NCBI GenBank assembly: GCA_021464415.1
Contig: CM038471.1
Coordinates: 10,133,386-10,197,385 of the forward strand
DNA length: 64,000 nt
Direction of reading: 5' to 3'
Source of the DNA: Lonicera japonica
Taxonomy: Eukaryota > Streptophyta > Magnoliopsida > Dipsacales > Caprifoliaceae
Shown: in pieces, positions 35,745 to 57,427 of the stretch
Numbering within the stretch: the stretch's first letter is position 1
How the letters are laid out: every line of letters starts with the position of its first letter
Notes under the pieces: generated by a model
What the model saw: the letters and a program-made list of their open reading frames with translations, nothing else
Told to the model about the DNA's origin: nothing
The model's database searches: none
Position numbers and translations under genes: made by a program

Positions 35745-36031
35745 CTACATCTGTCCCAATTTAATTGTCCAACTTTGAAAAATTAAAAGTTAAGGACACA
35801 TAATGATTATTTTAAGAGAAAATGTTTATTTCGAAAAATGACATTTACTTTTCTCCTACTAAAATAAGGTGGCAGGACCAACAATAAATAAAGTGGTGAG
35901 AGCTTAAAGGGTAATATTAGAAATAATAAAAAGTGTTATAATTAATGACTTACTAAATATAAAAAGTAGACAATTATTTTGAAATATCCAAAAATAAAAT
36001 AGTGGATAATTAAATTGGGACGGAGGGAAAA
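35745..36031 (+). mobile_element. Stowaway/mariner-like MITE, copy 1
   Basis: The left end CTACATCTGTCCCAATTTAA and the right end TTAAATTGGGACGGAGGG are inverted repeats of the CTCCCTCTGTCCCA type, with TA flanks as used by Tc1/mariner elements. Copies A and B of the surrounding repeat lack it. It is a short non-coding element, related in inverted orientation to 36204-36482. Confidence 0.8.
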
Positions 36032-36203
36032 ATATTTACTAATTTTGACCCGGGGCCTTATTTATTTCACCTGAGACAATAATTCACGCGTTGATTTCTT
36101 ATGTCCACCTACCTGTTAGCACGTGAACGAGAGTGAAAATAGTTGGCTACATGGAGTGTGATATGACATTTGTGTTGTACAACTTTTTACTACTAAGGTA
36201 CTA

Positions 36204-36482
36204 CTCCTTCTGTCCTAATTTAATTGTCCACTATTTTATTTTTAGATGTCCTAAAATAGTTATCCACTTTTTATATTTAGCAAGTCATTAATTAGAGACT
36301 TTATATTATTTTCAATATCACCCTTTAAGCTATCACCACTTTTTTATTGTGGATCCCGCCACCTTTTTTTATTAGAAAAAAAGTAAAAGTCATTTTTGAA
36401 AATAAGCATTTTCTCTTAGAGTAATCATTATATCTCAAATTTTTGTTTGTCAAAGTTGTACAATTAAATTGGGACAGACTGC
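36204..36482 (-). mobile_element. Stowaway/mariner-like MITE, copy 2, inverted
   Basis: Starts CTCCTTCTGTCCTAATTTAA after TA and ends AATTAAATTGGGACAGAC. Its reverse complement aligns along its whole length with 35745-36031 (shared GACTTGCTAAATATAAAAAG-like and GGTGGC(A/G)GGA words). The two copies form a 280-bp inverted repeat with a 172-bp spacer. Confidence 0.8.
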
Positions 36483-36586
36483 ATGCTTTTATTTAATTTA
36501 TAAGGGTTGAATATAAATTAATATATTCGGTATTTATAACTATAATAAAGAATTATTAAATTTTTAAAAATTGAATAACATGTATC

Positions 36587-38099
36587 TGTGAGAATCCGCA
36601 AATGCGACCCCCGGGTCTCGTCCCCGTTTGTTTGGGTGTCTGAAACATCGGAATGGATTCCGTCGTTCCATTTGCTGGAGTGTTTTTTGATAATTCATAT
36701 CACATGTCCATATGTTCTATTTTTAGATGCAAAGGGGTTCGTTCAGAGTCGCCAGTACGTTTTACGAGAAAACGGACAAAATAGTTGTGTAAGAGGAAAG
36801 GCTATAGACAAGCCTTTCTTTACACGTTTGTCTACGAAACCAGGATTCTATAGGGTTCGGAAACTATATTACGATTTGGGAAGGTGTTAAGCACCCATTC
36901 CGCCTTTTCGGTCTCTAGTGGTCTTTTATATGTTTATTCTATGTTGAAAAACTTGGATGCTTTTACTGACAGTCTACTACTCTCTAAGTGAAAACCCTAA
37001 TTTGGGAAAACGGGAAAAGGGATGAAAACCTCTGTGTTCCTGGATCCAATGTTTAGTTTTGAGAGATGAAAATACAAGTGTCAAGAGTTGTTCTTACTTT
37101 AGAGGGAGTTTTACCGTGTTATTTCTCAGATAACAACGATTTTTCTCGGATTTGGATTCATTTGTGAAAAAGTGTTGGATCTTGTATCGGAACTAATTTA
37201 ATATGGAATTAGAAATCTTGAGGAGAGTTCTACCAGATGTATCACAATCTATGAAACAGATAGGATATACCGGGTTTTTAATTCCTAAGTAAGTTTTACC
37301 GGTCCGGGTTTTGAAAATAGGATTTTATCCGAATGGTAATATACTTACTCTTCTGGTTTTGTAAATAGTTTTATCAGGGTCTTTTGTTTTGAAAACGGTA
37401 GACTATTTGTAACTTGGCAATAAGTTTATTCAAAGAAAACGTGGACAAAACAACAGAAATAAAACAAGTACACGGATGTTTAATGTTAAATACTAGAAGA
37501 GACTTTCTTTACCTTCCCGTCGAGAATAATGATAAGAAAGAAAATATAATATGGCAGAGAGATCTCCGGCAATAATGATCTTTTCCTTCTTCAGATATTT
37601 CCGAGAATTCAATTCCAGAGACGGGACACGTCAAGTGTCGAGAATAGATTCGATAATTCTTCAGAAATAAGACGATAATAGAGAATGCTTGATAAAAGAC
37701 TAAAAATCATATTTAAAGCTTAGAATTCTTCAATCCCAAGTTGCTGTCCTCAAACCCTTGGGGTGTTTGCCTATTTATACTGGTCGGAAGAGTATGTCGC
37801 GCGACACTTCCCCAAAAGGGGCATATGTCGCGCGACAAAGTGTCTTATGTCGCGCGACAAATGGCTGAAGTGATGTTTCTGACAGACTGATGTGTCAGAG
37901 AGTGGATGGTCTGGTGTCAGGAGGGATTGTCGTGCGACATACCCATTTGTCGTGCGACAATCTCTCTTAAAAATAGGTTTGTTGGCCAACAAACCCTTTC
38001 GGGGTAGTTTCGGGTGCTCGGGTGGGTCCCGGGCCCAAAAATAGTAGTTTTCGAAGGTCGTTAGGGTTCTTGCGGGAGTCACGGATCGGGGTGTCTACA
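36587..38099 (-). repeat. 3' LTR of the Ty3/Tat element (left side)
   Basis: Plus-strand sequence begins TGTGAGAATCCGC and ends GGTGTCTACA. It carries five copies of the 12-bp palindrome (37795, 37826, 37848, 37928, 37948) just upstream, on the minus strand, of TATAAATA at 37779-37772. Preceded by GTATC. Confidence 0.95.
37772..37959 (-). promoter_or_regulatory. LTR promoter: five TGTCGCGCGACA palindromes upstream of TATAAATA
   Basis: Perfect copies TGTCGCGCGACA are at 37795-37806, 37826-37837 and 37848-37859; copies with one CG changed to TG (TGTCGTGCGACA) are at 37928-37939 and 37948-37959. On the minus strand all are upstream of TATAAATA (37779-37772); the nearest ends 15 bases before it. 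The sequence CGACAATCCCTCCTGACA (minus strand, next to the 37928 copy) recurs at the DUF7745 gene promoter. These are likely sites for a dimeric DNA-binding protein; which protein is unknown. Confidence 0.75.
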
Positions 38100-38214
38100 G
38101 ACCCTCTTGACTCAAGCTCCTTGCTTGTAAGGATTTGAGGCGACTGGAAGATAACATGATCCATGGCTCCCGCAGGAACTCTAAGAAAGTGTGTGTATGC
38201 AAAAAGTGTTCGTG

Positions 38215-39125
38215 AACGCCTCTGGAGAGGGCTTGTGTTTGGTTTTTGCCTCCGGAGAGGGCTTGTGTTACCTCATTGCCTCTTTCGAGGACTTTTATTT
38301 GTTCCACTTGCCTCAGATGGGAGGACTACCATTGCTCTATTAGCCTCAGATGGGAGGACTACCGTTGCTCCACTGTGCCTCTCTGGGAGGGCTTCGCCTC
38401 AGGTGGGAGGACTACCGTTGCTACACTGTGCCTCTCTGGGAGGGCTTCGCCTCAGGTGGGAGGACTACCATTGCTACACTGTGCCTCTCTGGGAGGGCTT
38501 CGCCTCAGGTGGGAGGACTACCATTGCTCCACTAGCCTCAGATGGGAGGACTACCATTACTACACTGTGCCTCTCTGGGAGGGCTTCGCCTCAGGTGGGA
38601 GGACTACCATTGCTGCACTGTGCCTCTTTAGGAGGGCTTCGCCTCAGGTGGGAGGACTACCATTGCTCCACTAGCCTCAGATGGGAGGACTACCATTGCT
38701 ACACTGTGCCTCTCTGGGAGGGCTTCGCCTCAGGTGGGAGGACTACCATTGCTGCATTGTGCCTCTCTGGGAGGGCTTCGCCTCAGGTGGGAGGACTACC
38801 ATTGCTACACTGTGCCTCTCTGGGAGGGCTTCGCCTCAGGTGGGAGGACTACCATTGCTACACTGTGCCTCTCTGGGAGGGCTTCTGATCTTCTCGCCTC
38901 AGATGGGAGGACTGCCATTGCTACACTGTGCCTCTCTGGGAGGGCTTCTGATCTTCTCGCCTCAGATGGGAGGACTACTATTGCTACACTGTGCCTTTCT
39001 GGGAGGGCTTTTGATCTGTAAGAAGAAAGAAAAATTGCCTCTGGGAGGACTTTTGTGAGTAATTTTGCCTCTGGCGAGGGCTTGTGTTTGTGATTTGCCT
39101 CTGGCAAGGACTTATGTTTGTGATC
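38215..39125. repeat. 53-bp GC-rich minisatellite in the 3' region of the Ty3 element
   Basis: The core array 38310-39012 is built of 53-bp units made of GCCTCAGGTGGGAGGACTAC, then CATTGCTACACTGT, then GCCTCTCTGGGAGGGCTTC; about a dozen units, some shortened. Degenerate half units (GCCTCTGG..GAGGGCTTGTGTTT) flank it. Because 53 is not a multiple of 3, every frame is open in turn and the long frames here are artefacts. Tat-type elements often carry such variable tandem repeats before the 3' LTR, and these can seed satellite DNA. Confidence 0.95.
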
Positions 39126-39895
39126 TGGTGAATTTGTTCTTTGTCTCTCTTAGACTGCTAGAGTGAGAGAGAGAGATTTTCGTGAGGTTGAAAAGAGCTT
39201 CTCGGGGTCTAATCTTTATCCGGATGTCCGTTTTCCTGTATCTTTCTGAACTTTACTCTCATGTTTTCTTCGAGGGAAGATGCTTTTCTCAGAAGGCAGT
39301 TTTCGGATTTCTCTTGCTCTCCGCAGAGTGATGTTTCGAGGATTTCCAAACCATTTCTTCTGTATCGTGCTGAAAAGAAAATTTGTTTGAAAGTTCAATC
39401 TCTGATCTTTGTTCTCTTCTTAGTTTTCTCTTTTGGTGGGCCCACATCGTATTCTATTTTTCGATGCCCTTATTTTTCCCTCTTTTGGGAAAGACTTTTC
39501 CTGGCCTTTTCTGTTTTTGACCAGGAGTTTTTTATCCCTTCATCGTGATCAGGAGCCTTACTCACCCAAAACGAAGCCCTGAGCCGGTTTTTGGCCTAGC
39601 TGTCACTTTTGGTGTGGCTCCCCCTGTCACTCTGCATTTCTGTTTTTCTCGCTCGCTTTGGGCGCTCATGCGGGTTCTTTCTCTTTTCTACTCTTTCAAT
39701 TTTTTCTATTCCCGTTTTATTTTGATATCTTGCTTTTTCTCATTGATGGTCTCGGTCTTTCTGGGAGATCAGAGACTACTTTTAACCGTTTGTATTTTGT
39801 TCTCGTATTTCGGAGAGATGATTTGGAAGTCCTCCTTGAATTTTTATCCTGTGTGTGCGGTTTTTAGCAATTTTCTCGAAAACTGCTTCTCTGGA
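39126..39895. other. non-coding spacer in the Ty3 element
   Basis: Pyrimidine-rich on the plus strand, with repeated TTTTCT and CTTTTGG words. Plus frames at 39261-39548 and 39545-39919 are low-complexity Phe/Ser/Leu-rich and match no family. I see no gene here. It may be the 3' UTR of the minus-strand transcript. Confidence 0.5.
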
Positions 39896-40035
39896 GCACC
39901 CCTGCAAGAGATAAAATGAGACAAAGGTCAAAAATCAGGGGAGGGGGGGTTTGTCGCGCGACACTTCGGTGTATAGCTCTTTGTCGCGCGACAATGTGGC
40001 CATTTGTCGCGCGTCAAACTGCTCGACTATATAAG
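39896..40035 (+). promoter_or_regulatory. promoter of the antisense PMD gene: three palindromes and TATATAAG
   Basis: TGTCGCGCGACA is at 39952-39963 and 39982-39993, and TGTCGCGCGTCA at 40005-40016, followed by TATATAAG at 40028-40035 and the ATG at 40175. A CCCCTGCAAGAGATAAAATG stretch at about 39899-39918 is matched by CCCCTGCAAAAGAATAAAGT near 44321 upstream of the DUF7745 ORF, so the two antisense promoters share more than the palindrome. A CT-rich leader (40070-40100) follows, as in plant 5' UTRs. Confidence 0.75.
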
Positions 40036-40174
40036 CCCCTTGCTGAGCTCATTCCACCTCATTCTCTCCTTTCCCTTTCTCTCTCTCTAGCTTTATTTCT
40101 CTTTTCTCCTAAGCGCGGAAGCCCTGCCGCTTTTCCGACTTTTCCGATTTTTCTCACATTTTCCATATACCCGG

Positions 40175-43100
40175 ATGGACCCTGCTCATCCTGATAGACT
40201 GGAGGGTGACCAGGAGGAAGTCACTTTTACAGATGCTCAGGGCGTTCTTCGCTGCAGCCCTCACCATGACGACTGGGCCGACCTCGATTGGTACGGTGAG
40301 GATGGGGTAGACAGCGGTCGGGCGGTGGTCTACCGAGACAATACCCGGGCTGCTCCGGTCCCGGACGTTCCGTGGCTCTTGATGGAGCCTGTTTCTCACG
40401 AGATCCGTCGTCGATCTCTGGTATGTCTTCTTTTTATTCGTTCGTTTATTTCTGTCGTTTCCTGCATGTTTATTTAAATAAATGTTAATATGCATGTTTG
40501 CTTAGAAATAATATCCGATTTAGTGAACACATACTTTTACTTGTGATACCCTTTATGCTATAGAAAAATTACATAATTTTACCGCTAATAATCTCTCATA
40601 TTTACACCAAAGTACCCCTAGGTTTAGAAAAAATTACATAATTTACCCTTATAACCCTATATCTCTCATAATTACACCAAACTACCCTCAGGTTTGAAAA
40701 ATTACATAATTTACCCTTATAACCCTATATCTCTCATAATTACACCAAAGTACCCTCAGGCTTGGAAAATTACATAATTTACCCTTATAACCCTATATCT
40801 CTCATAATTACACCAAAGTACCCTCAGGTTTGGAAAATTACATAATTTACCCCTATAACCCTATATCTCTCATAATTACACCAAAGTTCACATAATTTAC
40901 CCTTATAACCCTATATCTCTCATAATTACACCAAAGTATCCTTAGGTTTGGAAAATCACATAATTTACCCTTATAACCCTATATTTCTCATAATTATACC
41001 AAAGTACCCTCAGGTTTGGAAAATTATATAATTTACCCTTATAACCCTATATCTCTCATAATTACACCAAAGTACCCTCAGGTTTGGAAAATTACATAAT
41101 TTACCCCTATAACCCTATATCTCTCATAATTACACCAAAGTACCCTCAGGTTTGGAAAATTACATAATTTACCCTTATAACCCTATATCTCTCATAATTA
41201 CACCAAAGTACCCTCAGGTTTGGAAAATTACATAATTTACCCCTATAACCCTATATCTCTCATAATTACACCAAAGTACCCTCAGGTTTGGAAAATTACA
41301 TAATTTACCCCTATAACCCTATATCTCTCATAATTACACCAAAGTACCCTCAGGTTTGGAAAATTACATAATTTACCCTTATAACCCTATATCTCTCATA
41401 ATTACACCAAAGTACCCTCAGGTTTGGAAAATTACATAATTTACCCTTATAACCCTATATCTCTCATAATTATACCAAAGTACCCTCATAATCCTGTACT
41501 CGTTCTTTTTGTCTGCAGTGGGTTGGCCGTGGTTGGGGTTCCCCCAACACCATTTATTTAGAGTGGCGACAGGCACCGGCTCCTGTCCAGGAGTTACTCC
41601 TTGCGACTCCTTTCGGCTCTCTCTTCGACGCCCTCCCGGAGCGGGTGTCTAGGGCGGCTGTGTTGGTGTTGGCTCTGGCCTGTCACTAGTGGGACACCAC
41701 TCACACTTTTCACTGGAGCTGGGGGGAGATGACGATGACCCCCCTCGACTTATTTGCTTTGACCGAGATTCCTTCAGGGGGGTCCCTATCCAGATTGATG
41801 TCCCTTTGCGCCTGACGGTAGAGGATATCGTGAGCGCACTTGGGTGGTTTCCCGAGCGACGGAGTTCGGGCGATACGATCCCCCGAGCGGTTCTGGTCAC
41901 GCGTCTGGCCACAGAGAGAGCTCGCTTGGTTGCTTCAGGAGCTTCGATGACTCGTCAGGAGGCACGTCAGTATGCCCGCGTCCTTCTTTTACTGACGCTC
42001 CATGACCTTTTTGAGGCCCGTGGGGGGGACACGGCCCATCTCTGGTGGCTGCCCTATCTCCGGGATTTCAGCATCATGTTCGACTACGATTGGGGCGGTT
42101 TCATTCTTGCCGTCCTCTATGATGCTATGGACCAGGTTTCTCGCCACTTAGCCCTGAACCTTAAGGGCTTTTCTTTGCTGTGGGAGGTATATACTTTTGT
42201 TCCCTTATCTTTGTTCTAGTTCTTTACTTTTTTATTAGTTGATTGTTGCTGATATTCTTTACATTTCCTCTTCAGAGTTGGTTTGTGGCGTATACTCGTT
42301 TGGGTCGCGCCCAGGTAGATCTCCTCGTTGAGAACGAGGATCAGTTTCCCTTTCTCCACCGATTCATTGCGGGGAACTACAGGGCTCCTTATGTATACCG
42401 AACTCGGGAGACCGGAGCTGCTGCCGTCCATGACCTACTGGAGGAGCAGGTAAATTTTTTAGTATTCTTTCTTTTCAATAAATAAATTGTAAATAGAATA
42501 TAAATAACTGAAATAAAATTTTGTTCTCTTTGTAGATTGAGTGGGCCCCCTGGGGTGATCTGGGTCTCCATTTCGGATATGGCCGTGCTCTGACCGCCTC
42601 GAGGACCAGGCGGCTGATTAGGGATGAGTACGGCCTTCATTTTTACTTGGGCGAGAGAGTTATTCGCCAGCATACACCGGCCCAGTGGCCCCGGGTTCCT
42701 ATATTTCCACCGGTTCTGATGAGGCGGACGGGCAAGATTGATCCGGTGACGGTGCGGCCTTGGTTGACGGTCTTGGCTTTCAGACGTTCACTGAAGAGGG
42801 AGACTACACTGCTTTCGCTGCCTGTTATTTGATGAGGGAGCCGAAGGGGACTCGGGGATGGGTCTTCTATGAGAGATATCGGGCGTTGGGAGGCGATCCC
42901 CATTACATACGAGGACAGACCCACCTAGCTAGGACGGTTCCGGGTCACCTGCCACCTGTCCCCGATCAGAGGGACAACAATTTGGATTCTGAGGTCGAGG
43001 ACCCCGAGGGGGAGAGGGACATTCCTGCTGCTGTCGAGAGTGGTGATAGATCAGGGGGTGAGGGAGGTGATACGACGGCGGCTCCGGAGCAGCCGCCTCA

Positions 43101-44208
43101 GACGACGCCCATAGAGGAGCAGCGCGCTGAGGGTTTTGAGTTCCCTACCGGCCCTTCTGTGTCTCCAGAGGTCCTTTTTGATGTTGCCGAGGCTGCCGAG
43201 GGGAGAGCAGGATTTTTTGAGCGGTCCTGGGAGCCTGCGGACCTTGGGGAAGATTACGAGCAGTTTGGGCGGACCCCTCCTGCTGCGGTGACTACTCCTT
43301 CTAGTGGGGTCCCGCCTTTGAGAGCGACGGCCATGGTGGATCCTCCAGGTGTTCGTACCTACGCTACACTGACCCCTCTTTTGCCGACTGCTATGGGCCC
43401 TCCAGCCCGATCTCCAGGTCTCGGCGGCTCATCTTCTCGCCCTCTTTTGTTCCCTATTCGCGAGGAGGGGGGGTCCACTTCTGCTAATGTTCCAGCGGGG
43501 CCGTCCATTCCTTGGGTAGATCTACCCCCACTTCCCAGAGATATCTCTTATGTCGGCGCCGGTTTACGTCGATACACTGTCCCCGAGTATCCTCTTCCTG
43601 AGGACACTTTTGACTACTTGGGTGGTCGCCCTGGTGATGAGGTACCTACTTCAACTTCTCTTGATACTTTTATATTTATATTTATTTATTTTGACTGTGC
43701 TGATTCTCTTATCTTATGTCTTTTACAGCGGGTGAGTGTACGGGTGACGGATCTGCAGGCTTGGCACGCCCAGTACCTCTATAGCTGGAACCTGCTCCAG
43801 TACGTCGGTCGAGACCCTCCAGCATACATGCGTGACTACCAGAGGGCTATTGACGTTTCTTTGCGGCCGGACGACCCCCTGACTTCTTCTCATGCCCGGA
43901 CGGAGTCTCGGAGGAGTAGTAGTCGGACCTCCAGGCGTTCTCGATCCTCGGTGATCCGTCCCACAGCTCCTGTCCAGTCGACGGGGCCCTCCCAGGCGGC
44001 AGTTCCTCCTGTTCAAGGCGTCCCAGTGGTTGACCTTACTCCCGAGGAGGGCTCGGGTGATAGTGGGAGCGTGTCAAAACGCGCTCGAGTAGATTGGTTT
44101 TTTCCTTTATGCATTTTTGTTAGTTTGAAACAGATATGTAGTTTTTATTTTTATAGACTTGTAGACAGAGATTTAGTTTTGAAAACTGTTCTTTTATTGG
44201 TTTTATGA
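40175..44208 (+). pseudogene. antisense plant mobile domain (PMD) gene, five exons, broken
   Basis: Exons from frame and GT/AG sites: 40175-40420, 41519-42186, 42276-42449, 42536-43641, 43729-44208. Exon 2 carries PMD motifs: DTTHTFHWSWGEMTMTPLDL, later ARVLLLLTLHDLFEARGGDT and AHLWWLPYLRDF; exon 3 starts SWFVAYTRLGRAQ; exon 4 has HFYLGERVIRQHTPAQWPRV. The C-terminal part is Pro/Ser/Arg-rich (SRRSSSRTSRRSRSS) and looks disordered. PMD proteins are found in plant transposons and in the host proteins MAIN and MAIL1, which act in gene expression and transposon silencing. Breaks: TAG at 41687-41689, a one-base loss in the G-run at 41777-41782, and a frame change near 42757. Intron 1 is filled by a 68-bp minisatellite; intron 4 (87 bases) is in frame without stops. 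It lies antisense to gag-pol, downstream of its own TATA and palindromes. Confidence 0.75.
40556..41487. repeat. 68-bp minisatellite filling intron 1 of the PMD gene
   Basis: About 14 tandem copies of a 68-bp unit: ACCCTCAGGTTTGGAAAATT, then ACATAATTTACCCTTATAAC, then CCTATATCTCTCATAATTAC, then ACCAAAGT. The period is exact in the centre (for example 40751 and 40819); the first copies are diverged and one near 40880 lacks about 20 bases. There are no spacers between units. The array sits between the donor at 40421 and the acceptor ending at 41518. Confidence 0.97.
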
Positions 44209-44320
44209 AAGATTCCTTATTCGTGTCTGATGATATACATGTATTCCTTATCTGTGATAATTTAAATGAATCAGTAATTTTTTAGGAGCCATACCTTGTA
44301 ACGCGGTAGTACTTAGGGCC

Positions 44321-44507
44321 CCTGCAAAAGAATAAAGTGAGCACAAAAATGCATCCAGAAGCGATTCTTTTGGCAAGAATGACTCTTACGTGTAAGAAAA
44401 AACAAACATAGGGTGACCCTAAAGGAGTCTGTCGCGCGACAATCCCTCCTGGACATGGGTTTGTCGCACGACAAACAGGCACAGGACCCTCTTTTTTGCT
44501 ATAAATA
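44321..44507 (+). promoter_or_regulatory. promoter of the antisense DUF7745-like gene: two palindromes and TATAAATA
   Basis: TGTCGCGCGACA at 44430-44441 and TGTCGCACGACA at 44462-44473, then TATAAATA at 44500-44507, then the ATG at 44546. The sequence CGACAATCCCTCCTGGACA next to the first palindrome matches CGACAATCCCTCCTGACA beside an LTR palindrome, and CCCCTGCAAAAGAATAAAGT matches the PMD promoter. This supports a common origin of the three promoters. Confidence 0.75.
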
Positions 44508-44545: not shown

Positions 44546-45802
44546 ATGTCTTCTTATCGCACAAAATCTAATTTTTCTTATGTCAATGCCCGAGATGCTC
44601 TGATATCTTCTGAAAACGGCTTGAATTTTGGTGCATTTAGTCCTTTGGCGGGCTGGTGCCATCGTCCAGTAGATTTTTCCTTTTTGCTAGGTGCTTTGTA
44701 TTTCTGGAGCCCTGCGGATCATCTTTTTCGTTTTGGGCTTGATGAGCTCTGCCCGACCTACGAGGAGTTTTCCTGGCTGTTGCGTTCTGACGTTCGTCTC
44801 CCGATGGCAGTTCCCATAGAAGAAATCGGTCCTCGAGATATGCTGATTGCTCTGCTAGCCATTCCCCAAGCGGCCTGTGATAGTTTTATTACCGACGGAC
44901 TCCTTGACCTCCATAAAATGGTGAGGTTCTTTCATTGTTATGAAGATAGGGCCTCTTACGACGTGGGGCGTACTGCGGCGGCCTTGATCTGCCTTATTTC
45001 TGATATGTTACTGGTGACGGGTTCCTCCCGTGTTGATCCGACTATTCTGAGTTTGATCTACCATGCTAGAAATGGAGAGTCCATAGTGCCTATTGTTCTT
45101 ATAGAGACTCTGAACGGTCTAGATGATATTCAAAAGGGGGCTTCACCTTTCTTCAGGGGACGTTCGCGCTTATTATACATGTGGCTGCTGAAGCGTTTCC
45201 GATCGGTGGGTTTCAACGGGGTTCGGCTCGATAATCCGACGCATTTCTTCCGTCGTCCCCTTTTTGGGGCTTTGACTATGTCTTCCTCTGATTGGACGGT
45301 GTGGTTTTCAAAGAACTTTCGGGCTATCCGGTGGAACATTCCTTGGTGGAAGCTGAGGGCGATGGTGCTTAGTACAGGGGGTCAGAACTATGTTCGGCTC
45401 CGCTGGCTCTGGTTTACTTCCTTTTATCTCCCAGGACGCCCCCTTTGTCAGTTCAACGTTCCTCAGGACATTTTCCATGGTCTGAACAACTTCTCCTCTG
45501 AGTCCAAATTTGTGACCCCGCATGTTTCTTTATCGGTAGAGAGGATGTGGCGTGCCCGACTAACTTGTCAGTTCAACTATGCTCGTTTTGGTATTACTCG
45601 TCCACTCCGGGCTGACATTATCTGCTCTTGCTGGCAATCCCTGGAAGGAGAACTGATTGATGACCCCTTTCAAATGGAGTGGTTCCGATTCATGGATGCC
45701 GGGGCCACTGATGATAACATTGTCTTTGCGTATCAGATCCTGGACGAGGCTCGTATTGATTTGGCTACTGAGGACCCGGTGTGGCCAACCCCTAGGGATT
45801 AG
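44546..45802 (+). CDS. antisense extra ORF of Tat element, DUF7745-like, intact (418 codons)
   Basis: An uninterrupted frame with a good plant start context (AAAATGTCT) 46 bases after TATAAATA. Residues 48-80 include FLLGALYFWSPADHLFRFGL and DELCPTYEEFSWLL, matching the pattern FWD....F.F...DL.PT.EEY..LL of a domain common in plant retroelement extra ORFs and, from memory, catalogued as DUF7745. The C-terminal half is Trp/Arg-rich (WNIPWWKLRAM, VRLRWLWFTSF). There is no signal peptide or clear membrane segment. Function is unknown. It is convergent with integrase (ends 46024, minus) across 221 bases. It is the only complete coding frame in an element whose gag, pol and PMD genes are all broken. 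Confidence 0.7.
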   Translation: MSSYRTKSNFSYVNARDALISSENGLNFGAFSPLAGWCHRPVDFSFLLGALYFWSPADHLFRFGLDELCPTYEEFSWLLRSDVRLPMAVPIEEIGPRDMLIALLAIPQAACDSFITDGLLDLHKMVRFFHCYEDRASYDVGRTAAALICLISDMLLVTGSSRVDPTILSLIYHARNGESIVPIVLIETLNGLDDIQKGASPFFRGRSRLLYMWLLKRFRSVGFNGVRLDNPTHFFRRPLFGALTMSSSDWTVWFSKNFRAIRWNIPWWKLRAMVLSTGGQNYVRLRWLWFTSFYLPGRPLCQFNVPQDIFHGLNNFSSESKFVTPHVSLSVERMWRARLTCQFNYARFGITRPLRADIICSCWQSLEGELIDDPFQMEWFRFMDAGATDDNIVFAYQILDEARIDLATEDPVWPTPRD

Positions 45803-46023: not shown

Positions 46024-49000
46024 CTATTGATAATACTTCTTCAGTCGGTCTATGTTGAGTGGTGAGTGCAGTAACTGTCCGTCTAAATCAGCGAGTATAG
46101 CGGCACCCCCCGTATTGATTTCTTTGACGATGTACGGCCCTGGCCACTTCTGTCCAAACTTTTCCCTTGGGTCCCTGGCTGGTTCTCGAATTTCTTTTAA
46201 TACAATGTCGTTCTCATTGATACCTCGAGTCTTCACTTTCTGGTTAAATGCTCGAGCGATTCTCTTCTGATACCCTTGGTGGTGGTATGCGACTTTCAAT
46301 CTCTTCTCATCCAGTAGGGCTAGCTCGTTATAACGTGCCTGGACCCACTCCAGTTCATTGACTTGATTCTCTAGCATTACTCTGAGGGAGGGGACCTCTA
46401 ACTCAACAGGGAGGACTGCTTCCATCCCGTATGTAAGAGAAAACGGGGTTGCACCGGTGGAGACCCTCTCGGTGGTTCGGTATCCCCACAATGCGTATGG
46501 TAATTTCTCTGGCCAGTCCCGGCAGGTGTCGGTCATCTTGCTTAGGATATTCTTCAGATTCTTGTTGGCGGCTTCAACTACCCTATTGGTTTGTGGTCTA
46601 TACGGCGAAGATTTGTGTCGGGTGATACCGTATTCCTCTATAACTGTATTGGCCTCTCCTTCAAAGTGAGTGCCATTATCCGAGACGATCTCGTGTGAGA
46701 CCCCATACCGGCAGATGATGTTCCGTCGGATGAATCGGGCAACTTTTATGGCGTCAAGGGTTTGGAAAGATTCGGCTTCCACCCATTTGGTGAAGTAGTC
46801 AATGGCCACTAGTATGAATTCATGGCCGTTGCTGGCTTTGGGTAAAATCTTCCCGATGATGTCAATTCCCCAAGTCACGAAAGGCCAGGGAGCAGTCATG
46901 TTGTACAGCTTTTTTGGTGGAAGTTTCTGAGATTTAATATAGATTTGGTAATTGTGGCAATGGCGTACGTGATTAACGCAGTCGTTCTGCAGGGTTGACC
47001 AGTAATAACCTTGTCTGATGATTTTGCGGGCAAGTGTATGGCCGCTCATGTGAGGTCCACAATCGCCCCCATGTATCTGATCCATCACTTTGACAGACTC
47101 TTTTTCAGTGAGACATTGGAGATGGGTCCCGTCGTAGTTCCTCTTATATAGCCTGCCGGCACAAAGTATGAACCCTGATGCTAATCTCCTGAGTGTGACC
47201 CGTGTTTTCTTGTCTGTTTGCTCGGGATACTGGTGATTTTTCAACAGGTTCCAGATATCGTAAAACCAAGTGGTTGAGTCCCCTTCCTCTTCATTCTCTA
47301 CCTCCAGGGCCATGCAGTGTGCTGGTCCTGATTTCTTTTGTATTGTAAGAGTTATTTCTTCCATCCCCTCCGGGATATTAATCATAGAGGCCAAGGTTGC
47401 CAGTGCGTCAGCAAAACTGTTCTGTGACCTGGGGACATAATAAAACTCCGCATGCTCGAACTTTCCAGCGACGTCCTCCAGTCGGGCGAGGTAAGGGACT
47501 AATTTCTCATCTCTGATCTTTCATTCCTTCAGAACTTGGTGGACCACTAGTGCTGAATCTCTGTATACCTGTATTCTGTGTATACCCCTTTGGAGTGCGA
47601 TCTCTAACCCGAGTATGCAGGCTTCATATTCGGCCATGTTGTTGGTGCAGAAGAAATCTAGACGATATGATACCGGGGAGTGAGTTTGGTCTGGAGAGAC
47701 TAAAAGGATGCCTATCCCGATTCCGTTTCGGTTGGCGGCTCCTTCGAAATACAATTTCCAGTCTTCATCGATCTCGACATTCATGATAGTTTCATCCGGG
47801 AACTCGGCTTCTTCTAGCATGTCCCCCAATATCGAATTATGGGTCAGGTAATCAGCTATGATCTTTCCTTTGACTGCCTTCTGGGTCATGTAGGTGATGT
47901 CGAATTCGGAGAGCATGAATAACCACTTTGCCATACGGTTCGAGAGAGCCGGTTTCTCGAAGAGGTATTTTAGCGGATCAATTCGTGATGCCAGGATGAC
48001 TGGAAAAACCAGCATGTAGTGCCGTAATTTCTGTGTTACCCAGACGAGAGCGGTGCATGATTTCTCCAATGGTGTGTAGTTTATCTCAAATGGGGACAGC
48101 TTCTTGCTGATGTAGTAGATGGCCTGTTCTTTCCGTGTATCGGTCAGATGTTGGGCTAGCATGGCTCCTGCAGCTAAATCAATGACGGTCAGGTATAGAA
48201 TTAGTGGTAGTCCGGTTTGTGGCGGGGCTAACACTGGGGGTTTGGAGAGGTAGTCTTTTATTCTGTCAAAAGCTTCCTGGCACTGATCGTCCCACTTTCT
48301 TGGTGAAGACTTCCTCAGGAGTTTGAAGATGGGTTCACAAGTCTGCGTGAGTTGAGAAATGAACCTGCTAATGTACTGCAAATTACCCAAGAACCCTCGA
48401 ACTTCTTTCTCGGTACGAGGTTCGGGCATGTCTTGGATAGCTCGGACCTTGGAAGGGTCTACCTCGATTCCCTTTTTGCTGACGATATAGCCCAGGAGTT
48501 TCCCTTTGGTTACCCCGAACACATATTTCTGCGGATTGAGTCTCATCTGATACTGGCGGAGCCGGTCAAAGAAGGCTCGCAAGGTTGGTACATGGCCTTC
48601 CCTCTCCTTCGACTTGATTATCATGTCGTCCACATACACCTTTACTTCTTTATGAATCATGTCATGGAAGATAGCTGTTGCCGCCCTCTGATATGTTGCT
48701 CCGGCATTCTTCAACCCGAATGGCATAACGGTGTAGCAGTATGTCCCCCATGGCGTGATGAATGCAGTTTTCTCTTGGTGATCTGGGTGCATCTTGATCT
48801 GATTATACCCGGCGAAACCATCTACAAATGACTTCAGGGCATGGTTGGCGGTATTATCCACTATCAAATCAATGTTGGGTAATGGGAAATCGTCTTTCGG
48901 GCAGGCTTTATTGAGATCTCGATAATCCACGCACATGCGAACTTTCCCATTTGCCTTTGGAACGGGCACAATGTTGGCTAACCATGAAGGGTACTCGATC

Positions 49001-49300
49001 ACCCGTAAGAAACCCACACTCAGTTGTTTCATCACTTCTTCTTTCACCTTCGGGACCATTCTGGCGTAAGTTTTCTCAACTTCTGCTTGACGGGCCTAAA
49101 TTCTGGCTTGATGTGTATTTCGTGCATGACTATCTGGCTGTTCAAACCTGGCATATCTGCATAGGACCAGGCGAAGACATCCACGTACTCGTTCAGAGTT
49201 TGTGTGAATTCTTCTCTTTCTGTCTTACTTAGACTTGCCCCAATACGGACCTCTTTCCTGTCTTCTTCCGTCCTGAGATTGACTATAAGAGTGTCTCATT
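46024..49300 (-). pseudogene. Ty3/Tat pol: reverse transcriptase, two RNase H regions, integrase
   Basis: Read on the minus strand. From about 49290, a leader with YVDVFAWSYADMPGL and EFRPVKQKLRKL is out of frame with RT, showing a frameshift at about 49060. RT: VRMCVDYRDLNKACPKDDFP, MPFGLKNAGATYQ and the catalytic YVDDMIIKS. RNase H 1: PLILYLTVIDLAAGAMLAQ, with a changed first Asp region as usual in Tat. The archaeal-like RNase H reads WKLYFEGAANRNG (Asp to Glu at the first catalytic position) and NNMAEYEACILGLE. Integrase: zinc-finger region with HCHNYQ in place of the usual C..C, then TWGIDIIGKI, VSDNGTHFEG and NRVVEAANKNLKN (D,D,E), ending LNIDRLKKYYQ. A single TGA at 47521-47523, one transition from TGG, splits an otherwise open frame from 49059 to 46024. 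Confidence 0.92.
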
Positions 49301-49653: not shown

Positions 49654-51345
49654 CTACGGCCCGATTGTCAATTTGGTAGAGAAGCTGTGTATGACGTTTT
49701 CCTTGATATAAAGGTCCTCTTCTCCTTCTTTGACAAAAAACCCATTCAGAGAGCTAAAACTCGGATACTGATGCCCTCGGCTTCTTCTCTCTTGGTCATC
49801 TTTTCCGGTGTGTTGGTACCCCAACCCTTCTTTTTCGTGGCTCGTCACTGGCTCTAGGGCTTGGAGTAACCCTGGCTGCCCCATTCCTAGACTGGCTCCA
49901 GGTAAATATTTCATCATTCTCAGCATATTTGTGATCTTGGTGCTGAGACCGGGGATATTGTCAGGGGGTAGATACTCGATTCTCTGGGTGGTGAGGGCTT
50001 GTACTTGAGGCTCGTAAGAAAAGCCTCCCAACTGTATGCTTTGGCTCCCGATGCCCAAAACAGGTAATTCCAGATCTGCCAAGGTCCTCTCAGGATCTCC
50101 TTGGATGGTGATTATATTCCCTTCGAATGGTATCTTGATCTTCTGGTGTAAGGAGGAAGGGAGTGCTCCTATGTCGTGTAGCCACGCTCTCCCCAACAGG
50201 AGGTTAAAACTGGAGGGGATGTCTATGATTTGGAAGTCGGCCGGAAAGTTTCCGGGACCGACCATGAGATCTAGTTTTAGGGAACCCAGAACGGCCCTTC
50301 TGGTGTTGTCATAGGCTCTAACAGTCACAGCTGATGGGGAAAATTCTGAGTCTAAGATACCCAGACATCTGGGGGTCTTCAGGGGGCAGACGTTTATGGT
50401 TGACCCGTTGTCGATGAGGACTTGCGGCAGGATTTTCCCTCGAGTCCGGACAGTGATATGGAGGGCCAGGCTGTGTTTTCTTTCCAATGGGGATAAGTCT
50501 TCATCTGAAAATGACAGACTTCTTTGGACTGTAAGTGACCAGATCATGTTTGGCAGTTGCTCGGGCGTGGAGCCTGGTGATATGACGGCCTCGTCTAGGA
50601 GTTTGATGAAAGCGGTCCTGTGAGGTTTAGAGGCAACCAAGAGGCCCCAAATGGTGATGTGTGCCTGAGTTTTCTTCAACTGTTCCAACACTCGATCTTC
50701 TCCTATTTCCTTAGGAGGTGGTGATTTCTCAGTATCCATTGGTGGTGGCTGGCATACCCTTCCTGAACGGGTAATTTGTTGTATCCAAAGAGATGCTGGG
50801 TCTGATCCTTCTGGGGTTTCTGATGACTCTGGCTCTGCCGACCAACTAAAAGTTTCGGGGGAGGTTTCTGTCATACAGATTGTCTCCTTGGGAAGGTCTC
50901 GGGGCTTCCACGGTTGTTTCTTCTTATTCTGGGTCCATCCTATCCTAGATTTTCTGGGATTGGTTTTGATTGTAAGTGGCTGTGAGATCCCCTGATTCGC
51001 CTTTCCTAAACCCTGCCCGGGTAGGAAGTTCATCTTAGCCATCCATTGGTCGATTATCGGATTGAGGCCTGGGGCAATTTGAGCCTTTGCTGGTAGCACA
51101 ACGGGTGCCTTATAGGCTGGGTCATCCCGAATGAGTCCTGCGGGGTCAAAGCCTTCTTCATCAGTGGTCAAGGCGTTAATTCCCGCGGGTGGAGCATGGT
51201 TGGGAAGGGGATTGTTGGTAACATTGGGTCCGCTGGGTGCGAGAATGGTTCCGGCTTCAATGAGGTCCTGGATACGATGGCGAAGAGCTAAGCAGCGTTC
51301 CGTGTCATGGCCTACTGCTTGATGGTATGCACAGTTCTCATTCAT
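49654..51345 (-). pseudogene. Ty3/Tat gag C-terminus and aspartic protease
   Basis: A 563-codon frame. It opens with a gag end motif CAYHQAVGHDTERCLALRHR, a variant knuckle of Tat gag. The protease core is QVLIDNGSTINVCPLKT, with DNG in place of DTG/DSG as in Tat elements, and FNLLLGRAWLHDIGALPSSL. Two Gly-rich motifs, GQGLGKANQG and GASLGMGQPG, flank it and recall G-patch-like segments seen in Tat polyproteins. The frame ends before the RT leader, about 350 bases short of it, with further frame changes between. Confidence 0.85.
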
Positions 51346-52812
51346 TCTCCAGGTGCTGCGAATAGGGTTTGGTGGGGGGCGCGGGTTGAGTGGAGAGCCT
51401 GGCTTTTCGAAGTAGTTCCAGGCTTTTAACCAGGGTAGTGGGGAGGGTGCAGAAGTTTCTCCTTCTCTTAGCCTTAGTGCTCGAAAGGTCTCCTTGTGCG
51501 GGCCAACTCATCTAAGGGGCTGGTTGTGACTGTTGAAAAGGATTTTATTGGTAGGGGTATGAGCTTAGTTGATTCACGGCTAGAGTGGCTGTCTTTCTCC
51601 CGGTGTATGAGGCTTTCTTAGTATCGGTTTCTACTTTCTTGGCCAATTCTTCCTCTACTTGCGACCCCATACTCAACAGGGCTCTGAAGTGTGGGAACAC
51701 ATGTTTTCCCATGCAACTCAGTACGGCTGGAGTGAAATTCTTCTGTATGATCTCCAACTGTTCTTCTTCATCGGGCCTTTTGGACATTTGGGAGGCCATC
51801 TCTCTCCAGCGGGTGACAAAGTCGCTGAAGCTCTCTTTCTCGCCTTGCTTGGCCATTTCCAGGTGTTTACGGGTAATTTCTAAATCCTCGTTGGACCCGT
51901 ATTTGGTCATGAACTCCTTCACGATATCTCCCCAAGTTTTTGTGTGGTGTCTCTCCAAATCGAAAAACCATCTCAGGGCGGCCCCCGTGAGAGTCATATG
52001 AAAGGCCTGAGCCAGCTCCGGCTCTCCACAGCCGGATACTTGCATGGATCTGATGTAGGATTGAAGATGGGTTTTGGGGGGTGTGGTCCCTGTAAATTTG
52101 GTGATGGAAGGGAGTTTGAATCCCTGGGGTAATTTTGCTTCTGGGCAGAGGGAAAAGGCATTCATATCTGTAATCTCGTCTGCCCCTTTTATCAGAGAAA
52201 TCCCTCTTTGCAGAACCTTCATCTGCTCTTTCAGTTTCTTCATCTCTTCGCTTTCTCTTGACACCTCATCGGGTTGTTCCCGAGCTATAACCGATTCTGC
52301 ATACACTGCCCGAAGTCGGTTGATGTCTGGGTATTCATTAGGAGGGGCTACTGGGCCGGTGGTGGAATAGGTCTTGCGGGGACTTGTGGCCATGGTTGGT
52401 ATTGGGGATCGAGGCCTTGCTGAGGTTGTGGCCAGATGATGGGTGGCTCTTGTTGTTGGTAAGTGGGGCCTGAATCCGGGGCCCATTGGTTCTGATTGTT
52501 GGGATCGGTCTGAACGGGACCGGCCATGACAGGGCCCGTTTGGGGTAGATTGGTTCCTTGAACTGGGGGAAGCATTTGCGATGACTGCCCTTGATCTCGA
52601 TTCGGTGGTAGCCGTTCAAACCCCGGTGGTGCGGTCCGTCCGGCTGACAACTCTTCTACTCGGACTCGGGTATTCTGTTGCTCATTTGTGAGGCTTGCTA
52701 GGTTCACGCTGACGGTCGTCAACAAACGGTGCATCTCGGCTAAAGTTGGCTGAACTGTAGACGCCTCGGCTAGGCTCTGATCTGTCTCTTGATTCTCGCG
52801 TCCATCGGCCAT
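51346..52812 (-). pseudogene. Ty3/Tat gag, broken
   Basis: The start is placed at ATG 52812 (MADGRENQETDQSLAEAS), since the same frame upstream reads leader sequence unlike gag. The first part is Pro/Gln-rich (PPIIWPQPQQGLDPQ) and reaches a TAG at 52350-52348; the continuation is in another frame (52486-51545), implying a frameshift between about 52480 and 52350. The gag domain there has FKLPSITKFTGTTPPKTHLQ, AFHMTLTGAALRWFFDLE and SFSDFVTRWREMASQM. Stops at 51544-51542 and near 51510 and a further frame change near 51350 precede the gag C-terminus. A heptad-like EEMKKLKEQMKVLQRG suggests a short coiled coil. Confidence 0.88.
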
Positions 52813-53551
52813 TTCGGGTGTGCTTGGTCTTACTAGTCTTCCGGTATGATCTCGACCGGCCCAACCTTCCAGTCTGTCGTCGCTTTTACGGCTGTAGACG
52901 AAACCACGTGGCGAAGGTGAAGGAAGACTATGATGCGACTCGATTTTTGCCAAAAGAACCACTAAAAATCGCCGAGGGAAGCTCGGGTTTTCAAAAAAAG
53001 GTGTTTGTAAAGTAAGCCGTAAGGTGGTACATCCCCTACGGCTGTTTGACAAGTGTTTTAGCTGACTCAATCTTATATGCAGCGCAGGTGTACGAACGGT
53101 TAAGGCTTCAGGCTCCCTCCTATTTGGCAAGACCTTGCGATATACCCCAGGGGCGGGTACGTGCAAGAGCCTTTTGATATACTTCCCGGGTACGTGAGTG
53201 TTCTCGTCACTCGATATACCTCGGGGGTGTAATTGGCCAAGGAGAGTGGAAGTAAATGCTTTCGGTTTATGTTGGCCCAAGCAAGCCAACTCCCTACTCA
53301 CTTATAATACTTCCGAGGGTTTGGGGTAAATTCACACTTGTAGAACCAATGCATGATTTGTGAAAGTGCATGTAAAGTTCGAAAGGTTGGTTTCACAAAT
53401 ATCATTATCTTTATTACGTATTTTGAAAAACTCCCATTTTTAGAAAAAGGTTTCTTCTCGATCAATTAACATAAGTAGGGAAAACAGTAAAAGCAAGTAT
53501 TCAACAGATAAACAAAAAGTCCACATATAAGAGTCTAGTTTTTTAACCCTA
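52813..53551 (-). other. Ty3/Tat 5' leader with a 37-bp triple repeat
   Basis: Between the PBS and gag. GATATAC(C/T) occurs on the plus strand at 53139, 53176 and 53213, exactly 37 bases apart, within a tandem unit that also carries GGGTACGTG. A frame continuing upstream of gag ATG 52812 to 53301 is leader read-through and not considered coding. The leader could hold the RNA packaging signal; that is only a guess. Confidence 0.6.
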
Positions 53552-53570: not shown

Positions 53571-55106
53571 TGTGAGAATCCGCAAATGCGACCCCCGGGT
53601 CTCGTCCCCGTTTGTTTGGGTGTCTGAAACGTCGGAACGGATTCCGTCGTTCCATTTGCTGGAGTATTTTTTGATAATTCATATCACATGTCCCTATGTT
53701 CTATTTCTAGATGCAAAGGGGTTCGTTCAGAGTCGCCAGTACGTTTTACGAGAAAACAGACAAAATAGTTGTGTAAGAGGAAAGGCTATAGACAAGCCTT
53801 TCTTTACACGTTTGTCTACGAAACCAGGATTCTATAGGGTTCGGAAACTATATTACGGTTTGGGAAGGTGTTAAGCACCCATTCCGCCCTTTCGGTCTCT
53901 AGTGGTCTTTTATATGTTTATTCTATGTTGAAAAACTTGGATGCTTTTACTGACAGTCTACTACTCTCTAAGTAAAAACCCTAATTTGGGAAAACGGGGA
54001 AAGGGATGAAAACCTCTGTGTTCCTGGATCTAATGTTTAGTTTTGAGAGATGAAAATACAAGTGTCAAGAGTTGTTCTTACTTTAGAGGGAGTTTTACCG
54101 TGTTATGTCTCAGATAACAACGATTTTTCTCGGATTTGGATTCATTTGTGAAAAAGTGTTGGATCTTGTATCGGAACTAATTCAATATAGAATTAGAACT
54201 CTTGAGGGGAGTTCTACCAGATGTATCACAATCTATGAAACAGATAGGATATACCGGATTTTTAATTCCTAAGTAAGTTTTACCGGTCCGGGTTTGAAAA
54301 TAGGATTTTATCCGAATGGTAATATACTTACTCTTCTGGTTTTGTAAATAGTTTTTTCAGGGTCTTTTGTTTTGAAAACGGTAGACTATTTGTAACTTGG
54401 CAATAAGTTTATTCAAAGAAAACGTGGACAAAACAACATAAATAAAATAAGTACACAGATGTTTAATGTTAAATACTAGAAGAGACTTTCTTTACCTTCC
54501 CGACGAGAATAATGATAAGAAAGAAAATATAATACGGCAGAGAGATCTCCGGCGATAATGATCTTTTCCTTCTTCAGATATTTTCGAGAATTCAATTCTA
54601 GAGACGGGACACGTCAAGTGTCGAGAATAGATTCGATAATTCTTCAGAAATAAGACGATAATAGAGAATGCTTGATAAAAGACTAGAAAATCATATTTAA
54701 AGCTTAGAATTCTTCAATCCCAAGTTGCTGTCCTCAAACCCTTGGGAGTGTTGGCCTATTTATACTGCTCGGAAGAGTATGTCACGTGACACTTCCCCAA
54801 AAGGGGCATATGTCCCGCGACAAAGTGTCTTATGTCACGCGACAAACGGCTGAAGTGATGTTTCTGACAGACTGATGTGTCAGAGAGTGGATGGTCTGGT
54901 GTCAGGAGGGATTGTCGCGCGACATAATAGGGATTGTCGCGCGACATACCCATTTGTTGTGCGACAATCTCTCTTAAAAATAGGTTTGTTGGCCAACAAA
55001 CCCTTTCGGGGTAGTTTCGGGTGCTCGGGTGGGTCCCGGGCTCAAAAATAGTAGTTTTCGAAGGTCGTTAGGGTTCTTGCGGGAGTCACGGATCGGGGTG
55101 TCTACA
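53571..55106 (-). repeat. 5' LTR of the Ty3/Tat element (right side)
   Basis: Aligns end to end with 36587-38099 with few substitutions. It is 23 bases longer, mainly because of a 22-base duplication that adds a sixth palindrome copy (54913 and 54935). Followed by GTATC. Confidence 0.95.
54757..54966 (-). promoter_or_regulatory. LTR promoter of gag-pol: six palindrome copies upstream of TATAAATA
   Basis: Copies: TGTCACGTGACA 54780, TGTCCCGCGACA 54811, TGTCACGCGACA 54833, TGTCGCGCGACA 54913 and 54935, TGTTGTGCGACA 54955. TATAAATA is 54764-54757 (minus strand). Relative to the other LTR most changes are CG to CA or TG, as expected from deamination of methylated cytosine. Confidence 0.75.
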
Positions 55107-56214
55107 GTATCTTATTTAATTTTTAAAGACTGGATAAGAGATAGGAGTGACATCAAGTGTTTAGTGGGATGAAAATATCATAATCATTTTTACTAAAAAA
55201 AAATATTAGCAAAGTTATTTACAACCCTTTATATTTGTCATAAACACATTTTTTGTCATAAACATTGTTCTATGATAAATTTATTATGCAAAGATGGAAA
55301 GAGTTTGTTTGTAAGAACCCACCTAATATCAAAAAATATTGAAAGGGGTATTTGTGATAAATAAGGAGGTGTTATAATGTATTATTAGTTAAATTAGGAG
55401 TGTTCATTTGAGGGGTGTAAATAACACTTGCCAAGAATATTGGGTGTGATATGCCACTTAAGTTGTTCTAATTTATTTTGATTATTGACTGATGTGTTTG
55501 TACTATTTTTATTTTATTTATATTGGGTGATGTTTGAAGCAACTTTCGTGCATCTCAACTAATTACCCGTTACAGCTTAGACCACACTCGTTTTTGCTCA
55601 TAAATGTTTTTGCAAGCGCTCGAGTTCAATTTGTGAAGCCCCCAGTTGATCCCAAAGCTTAACCCATTGCAATAACCGTTAAGATGTTTGTCCTATTTTT
55701 ACCACTAAAAGTTGACGCACATACAATGAGGATGTATGTATAATTTTAATTTAAAATAAAAAAAATAAAAAATAAAATTATTGTTAACTCAATAGTTAAA
55801 TTTTTTTATATTTAACCTTAAAATTTCTAGTCTCGCCTTATTAATAAAATATATTTTTTAATATAATAATAAGGATAAAAATAAAAAAAATAATTTATTA
55901 GAATAATAATTGCTTCAATTACCTTTGAATTTATATTATTATTATACAAGCAAATCAAGTCTCCTTTATAATCTTATTTATTTATTGTCTGACTCCATTA
56001 AAAAAACTGCAGGTGACTGATTTCGTTCAGAGTCCAGAAATTATCAACCACCTACCTACATTTATGCTCCAAAAGAATCTGACATTGGTAGCTTTATCTA
56101 TATTATATATAAAAATATAAATAACTTAAAGTATTTTTTTTTTTATTGACAAATATATTTTTTTATTTTAAAATTAAAATTTTCTATTTAAAATGAAAAT
56201 AACGTTGTACTAAA

Positions 56215-56708: not shown

Positions 56709-56771
<63 letters not shown>
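56709..56771. repeat. (TTA)n microsatellite
   Basis: About 21 tandem TTA units. The minus frame across it gives a run of Asn and is not a gene. Confidence 0.97.
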
Positions 56772-56772
<1 letters not shown>

Positions 56773-57342
56773 AACGGATCCTATTTCATGAAACAACAGT
56801 TCAACATAATAATTGATGTTAGTTAGTATTTTTATAATTTGTTTTATGGTCGACAATAGTTCTCTCTCTGCGTAAATAAATTTTTTTTTACTAGTTTATT
56901 GGTTAGTGTTTTTTTTTTATTGGTTAATGGTCGACAATAGTACTTATTGGTTAGTGTTTTTTTTATTATTATTGGTTGCGTACACTTTAAATTTAATTAA
57001 TTTTCTTGTCTATTGGTTAAATAAAAAATACAATTAATTAAACTAATAATAATGTACTAATTATATAATATACTTCAATACAGGTTTATGATTGGCCACC
57101 CGCGAAAATTTGGTGTAACAGTTTTAGTACACCTAATTGATTATACCATTTTCTTACAATTTTAAATTACCTTCTACACTTGATATTATTGTTTTTGGTT
57201 TATTTGTTATATATTTATCAAGCTTTTGCTTTGGATAGAACTTCTTTTATTTTTTTTGCCAATTTTTTTTACATATTTATTACTAAAATTAATAACATTT
57301 GTCAAACACTAAAGTCACGTGCAACGCACGTGTACAAAAGCT
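56772..57342. other. AT-rich intergenic DNA, nothing recognised
   Basis: TTGGTTAGTG-TTTTTTTT and GGTCGACAATAGT words are duplicated at 56850-56960. The GTCACGTGCAACGCACGTG sequence near 57314 resembles a terminus seen in old plant transposons, but I could not find a partner end. Confidence 0.4.

Positions 57343-57427
<85 letters not shown>
57343..57427. repeat. (TAA)n microsatellite
   Basis: About 28 tandem TAA units. Confidence 0.97.

Follow-up and report, generated by a model that had tools for sequence, protein, structure and literature searches.

The 64-kb stretch of Lonicera japonica DNA analysed here (the window) carries a long retrotransposon on its minus strand, bounded by two long terminal repeats (LTRs). 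Pfam matches along the element follow the order gag, G-patch protein, reverse transcriptase (RT), RNase H, additional RNase H and integrase, where the additional RNase H is placed by RVT_3 matches between RT_RNaseH and rve. Between pol and the 3′ LTR sit two genes that are antisense to the others and read on the plus strand, a PMD gene and then a second antisense gene. With gag, RT, RNase H, integrase, LTRs and a short flanking target repeat, in addition to the additional RNase H and a PMD extra open reading frame (ORF), the layout fits the Ogre/Tat clade of Ty3/gypsy elements. The element bears clusters of a 12-bp palindrome, TGTCGCGCGACA, at the promoters of the LTRs, of the PMD gene and of the second antisense gene, and this site appears to be held there by selection.

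Scanning both strands of the window for TGTCGCGCGACA with at most two mismatches yielded 16 sites, compared to a mean of 0.40 (largest 2) in 100 shuffled sequences. The sites are grouped in the U3 of either LTR and upstream of the two antisense genes, and each cluster ends a short distance upstream of a TATA box (Table 1). Elsewhere in the 64 kb, outside the two LTRs and the upstream regions of the PMD and second genes, no site with two or fewer mismatches was found. The initial annotation had described 5 or 6 sites in each LTR, three before the PMD gene and two before the second gene, each cluster shortly followed by a TATA box and with no copy elsewhere in the window, all of which was borne out. 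Four of the six sites in the 5′ LTR are altered, compared to three exact sites out of five in the 3′ LTR, so the window copy's own promoter looks decayed.

Table 1. Features of the retrotransposon in the 64-kb window, ordered by position
Feature	Position	Strand	Details
3′ LTR	36587..38099	-	LTR-LTR identity 96%; GTATC 5-bp flanking repeat at 36582-36586
TATA box of 3′ LTR, TATAAATA	37772..37779	-	15 bp from closest site
Five-site cluster, U3 of 3′ LTR	37795..37959		Sites at 37795, 37826, 37848, 37928, 37948; 3/5 exact
U3 position with another perfect palindrome, here TGTTGGCCAACA	37980..37991		TGTTGCGCAACA or TGTCGCGCGACA in sister copies
Three sites upstream of PMD gene	39952..40016		Sites at 39952, 39982, 40005
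TATA box of PMD gene, TATATAA	40028..40034	+	
Antisense PMD gene	40175..44110 (end approximate)	+	Predicted five exons; borders read from splice signals
Two sites upstream of second antisense gene	44430..44473		Sites at 44430, 44462; 32 bp apart
TATA box of second antisense gene	44500..44507	+	
Second antisense gene, PMD/DUF7745-like	44546..45802	+	Open, 418 codons
pol (RT, RNase H, additional RNase H, integrase)	46027..49095	-	Two stop-free stretches; Pfam
gag and adjoining ORFs, one with G-patch domain	49657..53301	-	Pfam
5′ LTR	53571..55106	-	GTATC flanking repeat at 55107-55111
TATA box of 5′ LTR	54757..54764	-	Predicted gag-pol promoter
Six-site cluster, U3 of 5′ LTR	54780..54966		Sites at 54780, 54811, 54833, 54913, 54935, 54955; 2/6 exact

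Across the genome scanned, with a size of 886 Mb and nine large contigs (C1-C9), exact TGTCGCGCGACA occurs 29,561 times, compared to once for the reversed control. All 53 exact sites in 13 stretches, which were fetched around exact copies in the first 4.5 Mb of contig C1, fall into element regions, namely the LTR (41 sites), the 5′ region of the PMD gene (nine) and that of the second gene (three). The initial annotation would have been contradicted by a motif missing from related elements, or strewn over them at random; the relatives sampled in this genome do carry it, and its exact copies keep to these three regions, so both checks favour that annotation within this sample. None of three genes from other PMD families has an upstream site at two or fewer mismatches, and the single two-mismatch match lies within the coding match of one of these controls (L048). 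Among the sites sampled, the palindrome looks private to this Ogre/Tat-type family. In the open-access literature of PubMed Central (PMC), the 12-mer string turned up in a paper on chicken PRMT4, judged by its title, and not in work on plant retrotransposons; matches to the inner 10-mer exist there, none of them on plant retrotransposons by title. What was consulted of this literature yielded neither a naming of TGTCGCGCGACA as a regulatory site nor a description of a site common to LTR and antisense promoters.

The arrangement of site and TATA box recurs among the relatives. Genome-wide, a site lies 8-30 bp ahead of TATAAATA at 5,048 places, compared to 0 for the reversed control, and in the DNA stretches examined a site is located upstream of TATAAATA at 49 places and downstream of it at 0. 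Typing of 25 distinct forms by the gap between site and TATAAATA gave 19 LTR-like forms with 15-16 bp and six with 25-29 bp, five of the latter being second-gene-like. The LTRs possess 4 to 11 sites each, and PMD promoters have three sites in 10 of 11 copies and a single site in the other. Second-gene promoters retain at least one site in 36 of 36 copies (33 aligned and three later; L056, which ended short of this promoter, was left out of the count), with two sites in 26, three in nine and one in one by two-mismatch scans; the third site corresponds to one further 32-bp unit. The divergent L007-type subfamily retains the site as well, at both the PMD (L051, L053, L055) and the second-gene (L052, L054) promoters.

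A similar promoter may be read in a second species. A protein search with the 418-residue second antisense protein gave one match, P0001 of Lonicera macranthoides, which is 92% identical and begins with MGLSRDTSPWKWVCRATNRYRTLFFAINTP ahead of the usual start. Among the extra residues, LSRDT and CRATN are each compatible with a copy of the site, the two copies being 32 bp apart, and FAINT is compatible with TTTGCTATAAATAC. Judged from these residues, the start of P0001 fits a read-through of the promoter, which would comprise two sites and a TATA box.

The spacings among 187 clustered sites take only the values 20-23, 30-34, 72 and 80-81 bp. Spacings of 20-23 and 30-34 bp correspond to about two and three helical turns, but we do not claim strict helical phasing, because 80-81 bp is not a whole number of turns and the spacing is inherited. 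We rejected the explanation that a single promoter was copied to give all three in the window, since they are otherwise unrelated once the sites are masked: the masked comparison revealed no similarity beyond a 10-bp flank, found in the LTR and the second gene (E 0.045), and 8-mers (E 0.7-0.9).

The two LTRs of one insertion start identical, and their differences represent post-insertion mutation. Within eight LTR pairs, 33 of 612 site positions differ (5.4%), compared to 63 of 2,320 (2.7%) in the rest of U3 up to the TATA box; the three CpGs of the site would cause such fast decay. Between subfamilies, where the initial annotation had asked whether the motif is better conserved than flanking U3, 80 of 879 site positions differ (9.1%) versus 575 of 3,153 in the rest (18.2%), over 12 pairs that were hand-picked and have sequences in common. 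The ratio of the rate in the site to that in its surroundings is 1.99 within insertions (bootstrap 1.32-3.24) and 0.50 between subfamilies (0.33-0.68), and the direction is consistent in seven of eight within-pairs and 12 of 12 between-pairs. Three choices of disjoint between-pairs gave P values of 1.4e-4, 2.4e-6 and 1.3e-7. The fraction of CpGs retained is 0.64-0.87 in the motif, compared to 0.18-0.58 outside it, and a shift control supports conservation of the motif in the LTR (0/636 shifts) and in the PMD promoter (9/467). Slow mutation as the source of this conservation was rejected: within an insertion, the site changes faster than the sequence around it. Faster change within insertions together with slower change between subfamilies points to selection instead, and natural selection appears to retain the site against its own high mutation rate. 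The interpretation in the initial annotation is supported in part, namely for one module at three promoters, which is much more frequent than expected by chance, recurs in related copies, keeps its link to the TATA box and is apparently retained by selection.

One position in U3 was tabulated for the 18 usable sequences among 29 U3 sequences (L007, L008, L010, L057-L060, L062-L064 and L072 were left out). It reads TGTTGGCCAACA in six rows, TGTTGCGCAACA in two and TGTCGCGCGACA in one, all three of which are perfect dyads. The other rows are one step off the dyad (L013, L068-L070), broken by an extra A (L005, L006, L009, L061) or degenerate (L017). Symmetric double changes were dropped as a general test of the dyad: 126 of the 187 sites are exact and four are altered but still perfect palindromes, and more than half of the remaining changes consist of one CpG transition each. 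The paired changes at the U3 position would also suit a hairpin, and the internal and 3′ LTR sites are present on the genomic RNA too, so that the palindrome might act in RNA, as a hairpin or a dimer contact in genomic RNA, or else be a by-product of tandem-repeat turnover, with which shifts of copy number by whole units (32 bp at the second antisense promoter) would agree. We regard this as very unlikely, in view of a position tied to the TATA box at three promoters that have almost nothing else in common, and of spacers that diverge while the 12-mer stays, unlike what repeat turnover alone would leave.

Site number is inversely related to divergence of U3, with a rho of -0.86 over 11 LTR pairs and of -0.80 (P 0.03) over seven subfamily representatives. 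The three least diverged LTR pairs, whose U3 regions are 99.75-100% identical over 399-433 bp, have nine sites per LTR. That less diverged pairs have more sites favours a positive effect of the site. It also bears on self-limiting repression, by which an element-encoded or host repressor would bind the palindrome and lower all three promoters, as in copy-number control. Perfect dyads near the TATA box are typical of operators, and CpG-rich sites could also recruit silencing. Nevertheless, most sites are found in the least diverged copies, whereas escape from repression would favour their loss, and the sites are located upstream of the TATA box and not over it; repression is therefore improbable in our estimate.

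Two observations concern the growth of arrays and lineages. In the U3 of L065 (3177-3414), whose two LTRs are identical in U3, a block of about 100 bp is duplicated; the blocks are 89% alike and contain two sites each, indicating more than one size of unit in the growth of the array. In addition, dozens of second-gene copies on C1, C2, C3, C5, C9 and other contigs have equal score and identity to the protein P0002, suggesting that one lineage multiplied in a recent burst.

The antisense PMD gene of the window is broken by an in-frame stop at 41687-41689 and a frame change near 41770. The PMD domain (PF10536, cut-off 34.9 bits) is recognised above the cut-off in an exon of L054 (39.5 bits) and below it in two pieces of L011 (31.5 and 23.6 bits) and in the window copy (22.9 bits); the piece from L006 gave no match. 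Intron 1 of the window copy is filled by 68-bp tandem repeats (40500-41569), and the four L007-type stretches extending into the intron (L051, L053, L054 and L056) contain matches to these repeats.

The second antisense protein gave no Pfam match at E 0.01 or better in its window copy. PMD (PF10536) is matched at E 0.01 or better by four relatives out of the five scanned, and DUF7745 (PF24924) is matched at some level by four, with every score under its curated cut-off: the DUF7745 matches reach 12.3-20.5 bits (cut-off 26; no match in the fifth relative), and the PMD matches 17.5-24.7 bits in three Lonicera homologues scanned. The label "DUF7745-like" of the initial annotation is thus upheld in part, by the sub-threshold DUF7745 matches of four relatives, and falls short in that the window copy has no Pfam match and four relatives match PMD. 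By its sequence matches, we class the second antisense protein as PMD/DUF7745-like and PMD-related. The ratio of nonsynonymous to synonymous substitution rates (dN/dS) of the second gene is 0.065-0.129 at dS 0.17-0.67 in nine comparisons; a separate comparison of this gene, W/L054, was out of register and is left out. For a 61-codon piece of the PMD gene, dN/dS is 0.07-0.14 in eight of ten comparisons and 0.20 and 0.47 in the other two. Judged by these ratios, both antisense proteins are under constraint.

We propose that the site is a selected promoter element of this family, bound by a dimer of one antisense PMD-related protein that would activate or de-silence all three promoters; on the sequence evidence at hand, we give this little short of an even chance. 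Binding by a dimer is suggested by the dyad of the site, and an antisense protein is the putative binder because site and genes are conserved jointly. The positive sign is suggested by the position of the sites, 11-29 bp upstream of the TATA box and not on it, in addition to the recent amplification that goes with more sites. The bound dimer of one of the two proteins would switch on or de-silence the LTR, PMD and second-gene promoters together, such that gag-pol and the two antisense genes would constitute a single regulon with a positive loop, comparable to the part that VANC plays for VANDAL elements. In its fullest form, the proposal is that the element runs its own transcription factor and regulon, in which antisense PMD-superfamily proteins bind the palindrome in the LTR as well as in the promoters of their own genes, in a positive loop that switches the whole element on, and that winning lineages multiplied the site; this is possible, though we hold it with more reserve.

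Multiple copies at 11-29 bp upstream of the TATA box would equally suit an ordinary activator, and one factor suffices for several promoters to have a site in common. A pre-existing host transcription factor might thus recognise the palindrome, so that the three promoters answer the same host signal while the antisense proteins do something else, and the selection data fit this equally well. Against it stand the 53 of 53 sampled exact sites within this family, in addition to the finding that no set of host genes with the site was seen, no search having been aimed at host promoters. To our knowledge, no plant factor has this 12-bp consensus, which likewise speaks against a host factor. The ARF half-sites TGTC, CAMTA CGCG and BZR CGTGCG resemble the palindrome only in part. 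Altogether, we consider a host factor rather unlikely.

Several results weigh against a selected site that is bound by an antisense protein and acts at all three promoters. Exceptions occur among the promoters: L045 retains one site at the second gene, the PMD promoter of L051 has one site instead of three and its stretch between site and TATA box is shortened, and at least one entry among the site-TATA places (C1:576069, the sixth form of the 25-29 bp group) owes its TATAAATA to coincidence, at the opposite side of an LTR array. The LTR and second-gene units have the 10-bp flank beside the site in common, so part of what they share may be copied units, and single units may have been exchanged between the LTR and the second gene. 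In two between-pairs the motif differs nearly as much as the rest (L007-L014, 0.217 versus 0.235; L008-L014, 0.144 versus 0.185). Taken by itself, the second antisense promoter does not reach significance in the shift control (60/376 and 56/341), which we attribute to conservation of its TATA region too, and the correlation of site number with age is based on few, related lineages. As for the putative binder, structure predictions of the second antisense protein, with a mean predicted local distance difference test (pLDDT) score of 31.6 and 33.0, are of too low confidence to reveal a DNA-binding fold; P0001 has no sequence match among solved structures. Finally, with P0002 as the query, this genome gave no other family of the antisense protein that has a site of its own, the matches listed being only of 34-42% identity and taken as the same family.

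Other repeats lie in and around the element. Repeats of 53/63 bp occupy 38257-39019, between the 3′ LTR and the PMD promoter. Nested inverted repeats with arms of 90 and 45 nt are located directly left of the insertion site (35750-36478) and perhaps represent a foldback element or one resembling a miniature inverted-repeat transposable element. To the right of the element, there are two long microsatellites, TAT (56709-56773) and ATA (57342-57427), about 0.6 kb apart.

VANDALs, to which the initial annotation had compared this element, are DNA transposons. In the parts of the papers on which we draw, here and for the systems below, the anti-silencing VANC proteins of Arabidopsis bind short motifs that are repeated within the VANDAL element encoding them (PMC5735166), and the motif YAGTATTAY, which is non-palindromic, forms arrays in non-coding DNA including introns (PMC5735166, PMC10398659). 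Like it, the present site is a short motif that recurs in non-coding DNA of a single element family, is enriched there, and is gained or lost in repeat units; unlike it, the site has dyad symmetry and accompanies the TATA boxes of three promoters in a retrotransposon, and its binder is only putative. The two cases are alike in their logic but differ in element class, motif and protein, the antisense proteins here matching PMD or DUF7745. The parallel holds as "works like" and not as membership.

Among other elements, Grande reportedly has an accessory gene with its own promoter, going by a title. A PMD extra ORF is present in 57% of Ogre elements (PMC6317226), and our element resembles the Ogre/Tat elements with PMD genes (PMC6317226, PMC5418596) in this ORF and in the additional RNase H between RNase H and integrase. 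It differs from them, as described there, by two PMD-related antisense genes and by a cis element common to LTR and antisense promoters. For MULE elements, captured PMD genes were speculated by the authors to serve anti-silencing (PMC5418596). Retand elements similarly have antisense genes between pol and the 3′ LTR, along with tandem repeats, and a regulatory role was suggested for these TRP28 genes (PMC11963269); the genes here are PMD instead of TRP28, and a cis site is not named for Retand in the part of that paper available to us. In the host, PMD proteins act in silencing, and a promoter motif ("DOWN") is enriched among the Arabidopsis genes that need MAIN and MAIL1 (PMC7156037). There, too, PMD proteins are linked to expression of genes with a common promoter motif; unlike here, these are host genes. 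Binding is not demonstrated in the part of that paper concerned.

Ogre and Retand elements have long been known to carry extra genes, but no function has been assigned to these. An apparently selected site at both sense and antisense promoters makes the suggestion that they may regulate directly testable. If the proposal is true, the antisense PMD genes in Ogre elements, long unexplained, would acquire a function. If the proteins bind the site, sequence-specific DNA recognition would become a molecular activity of PMD, with a bearing on the part that the host PMD proteins MAIN and MAIL1 play in gene silencing. VANDAL would then be joined by an LTR retrotransposon that has its own sequence-specific regulator.

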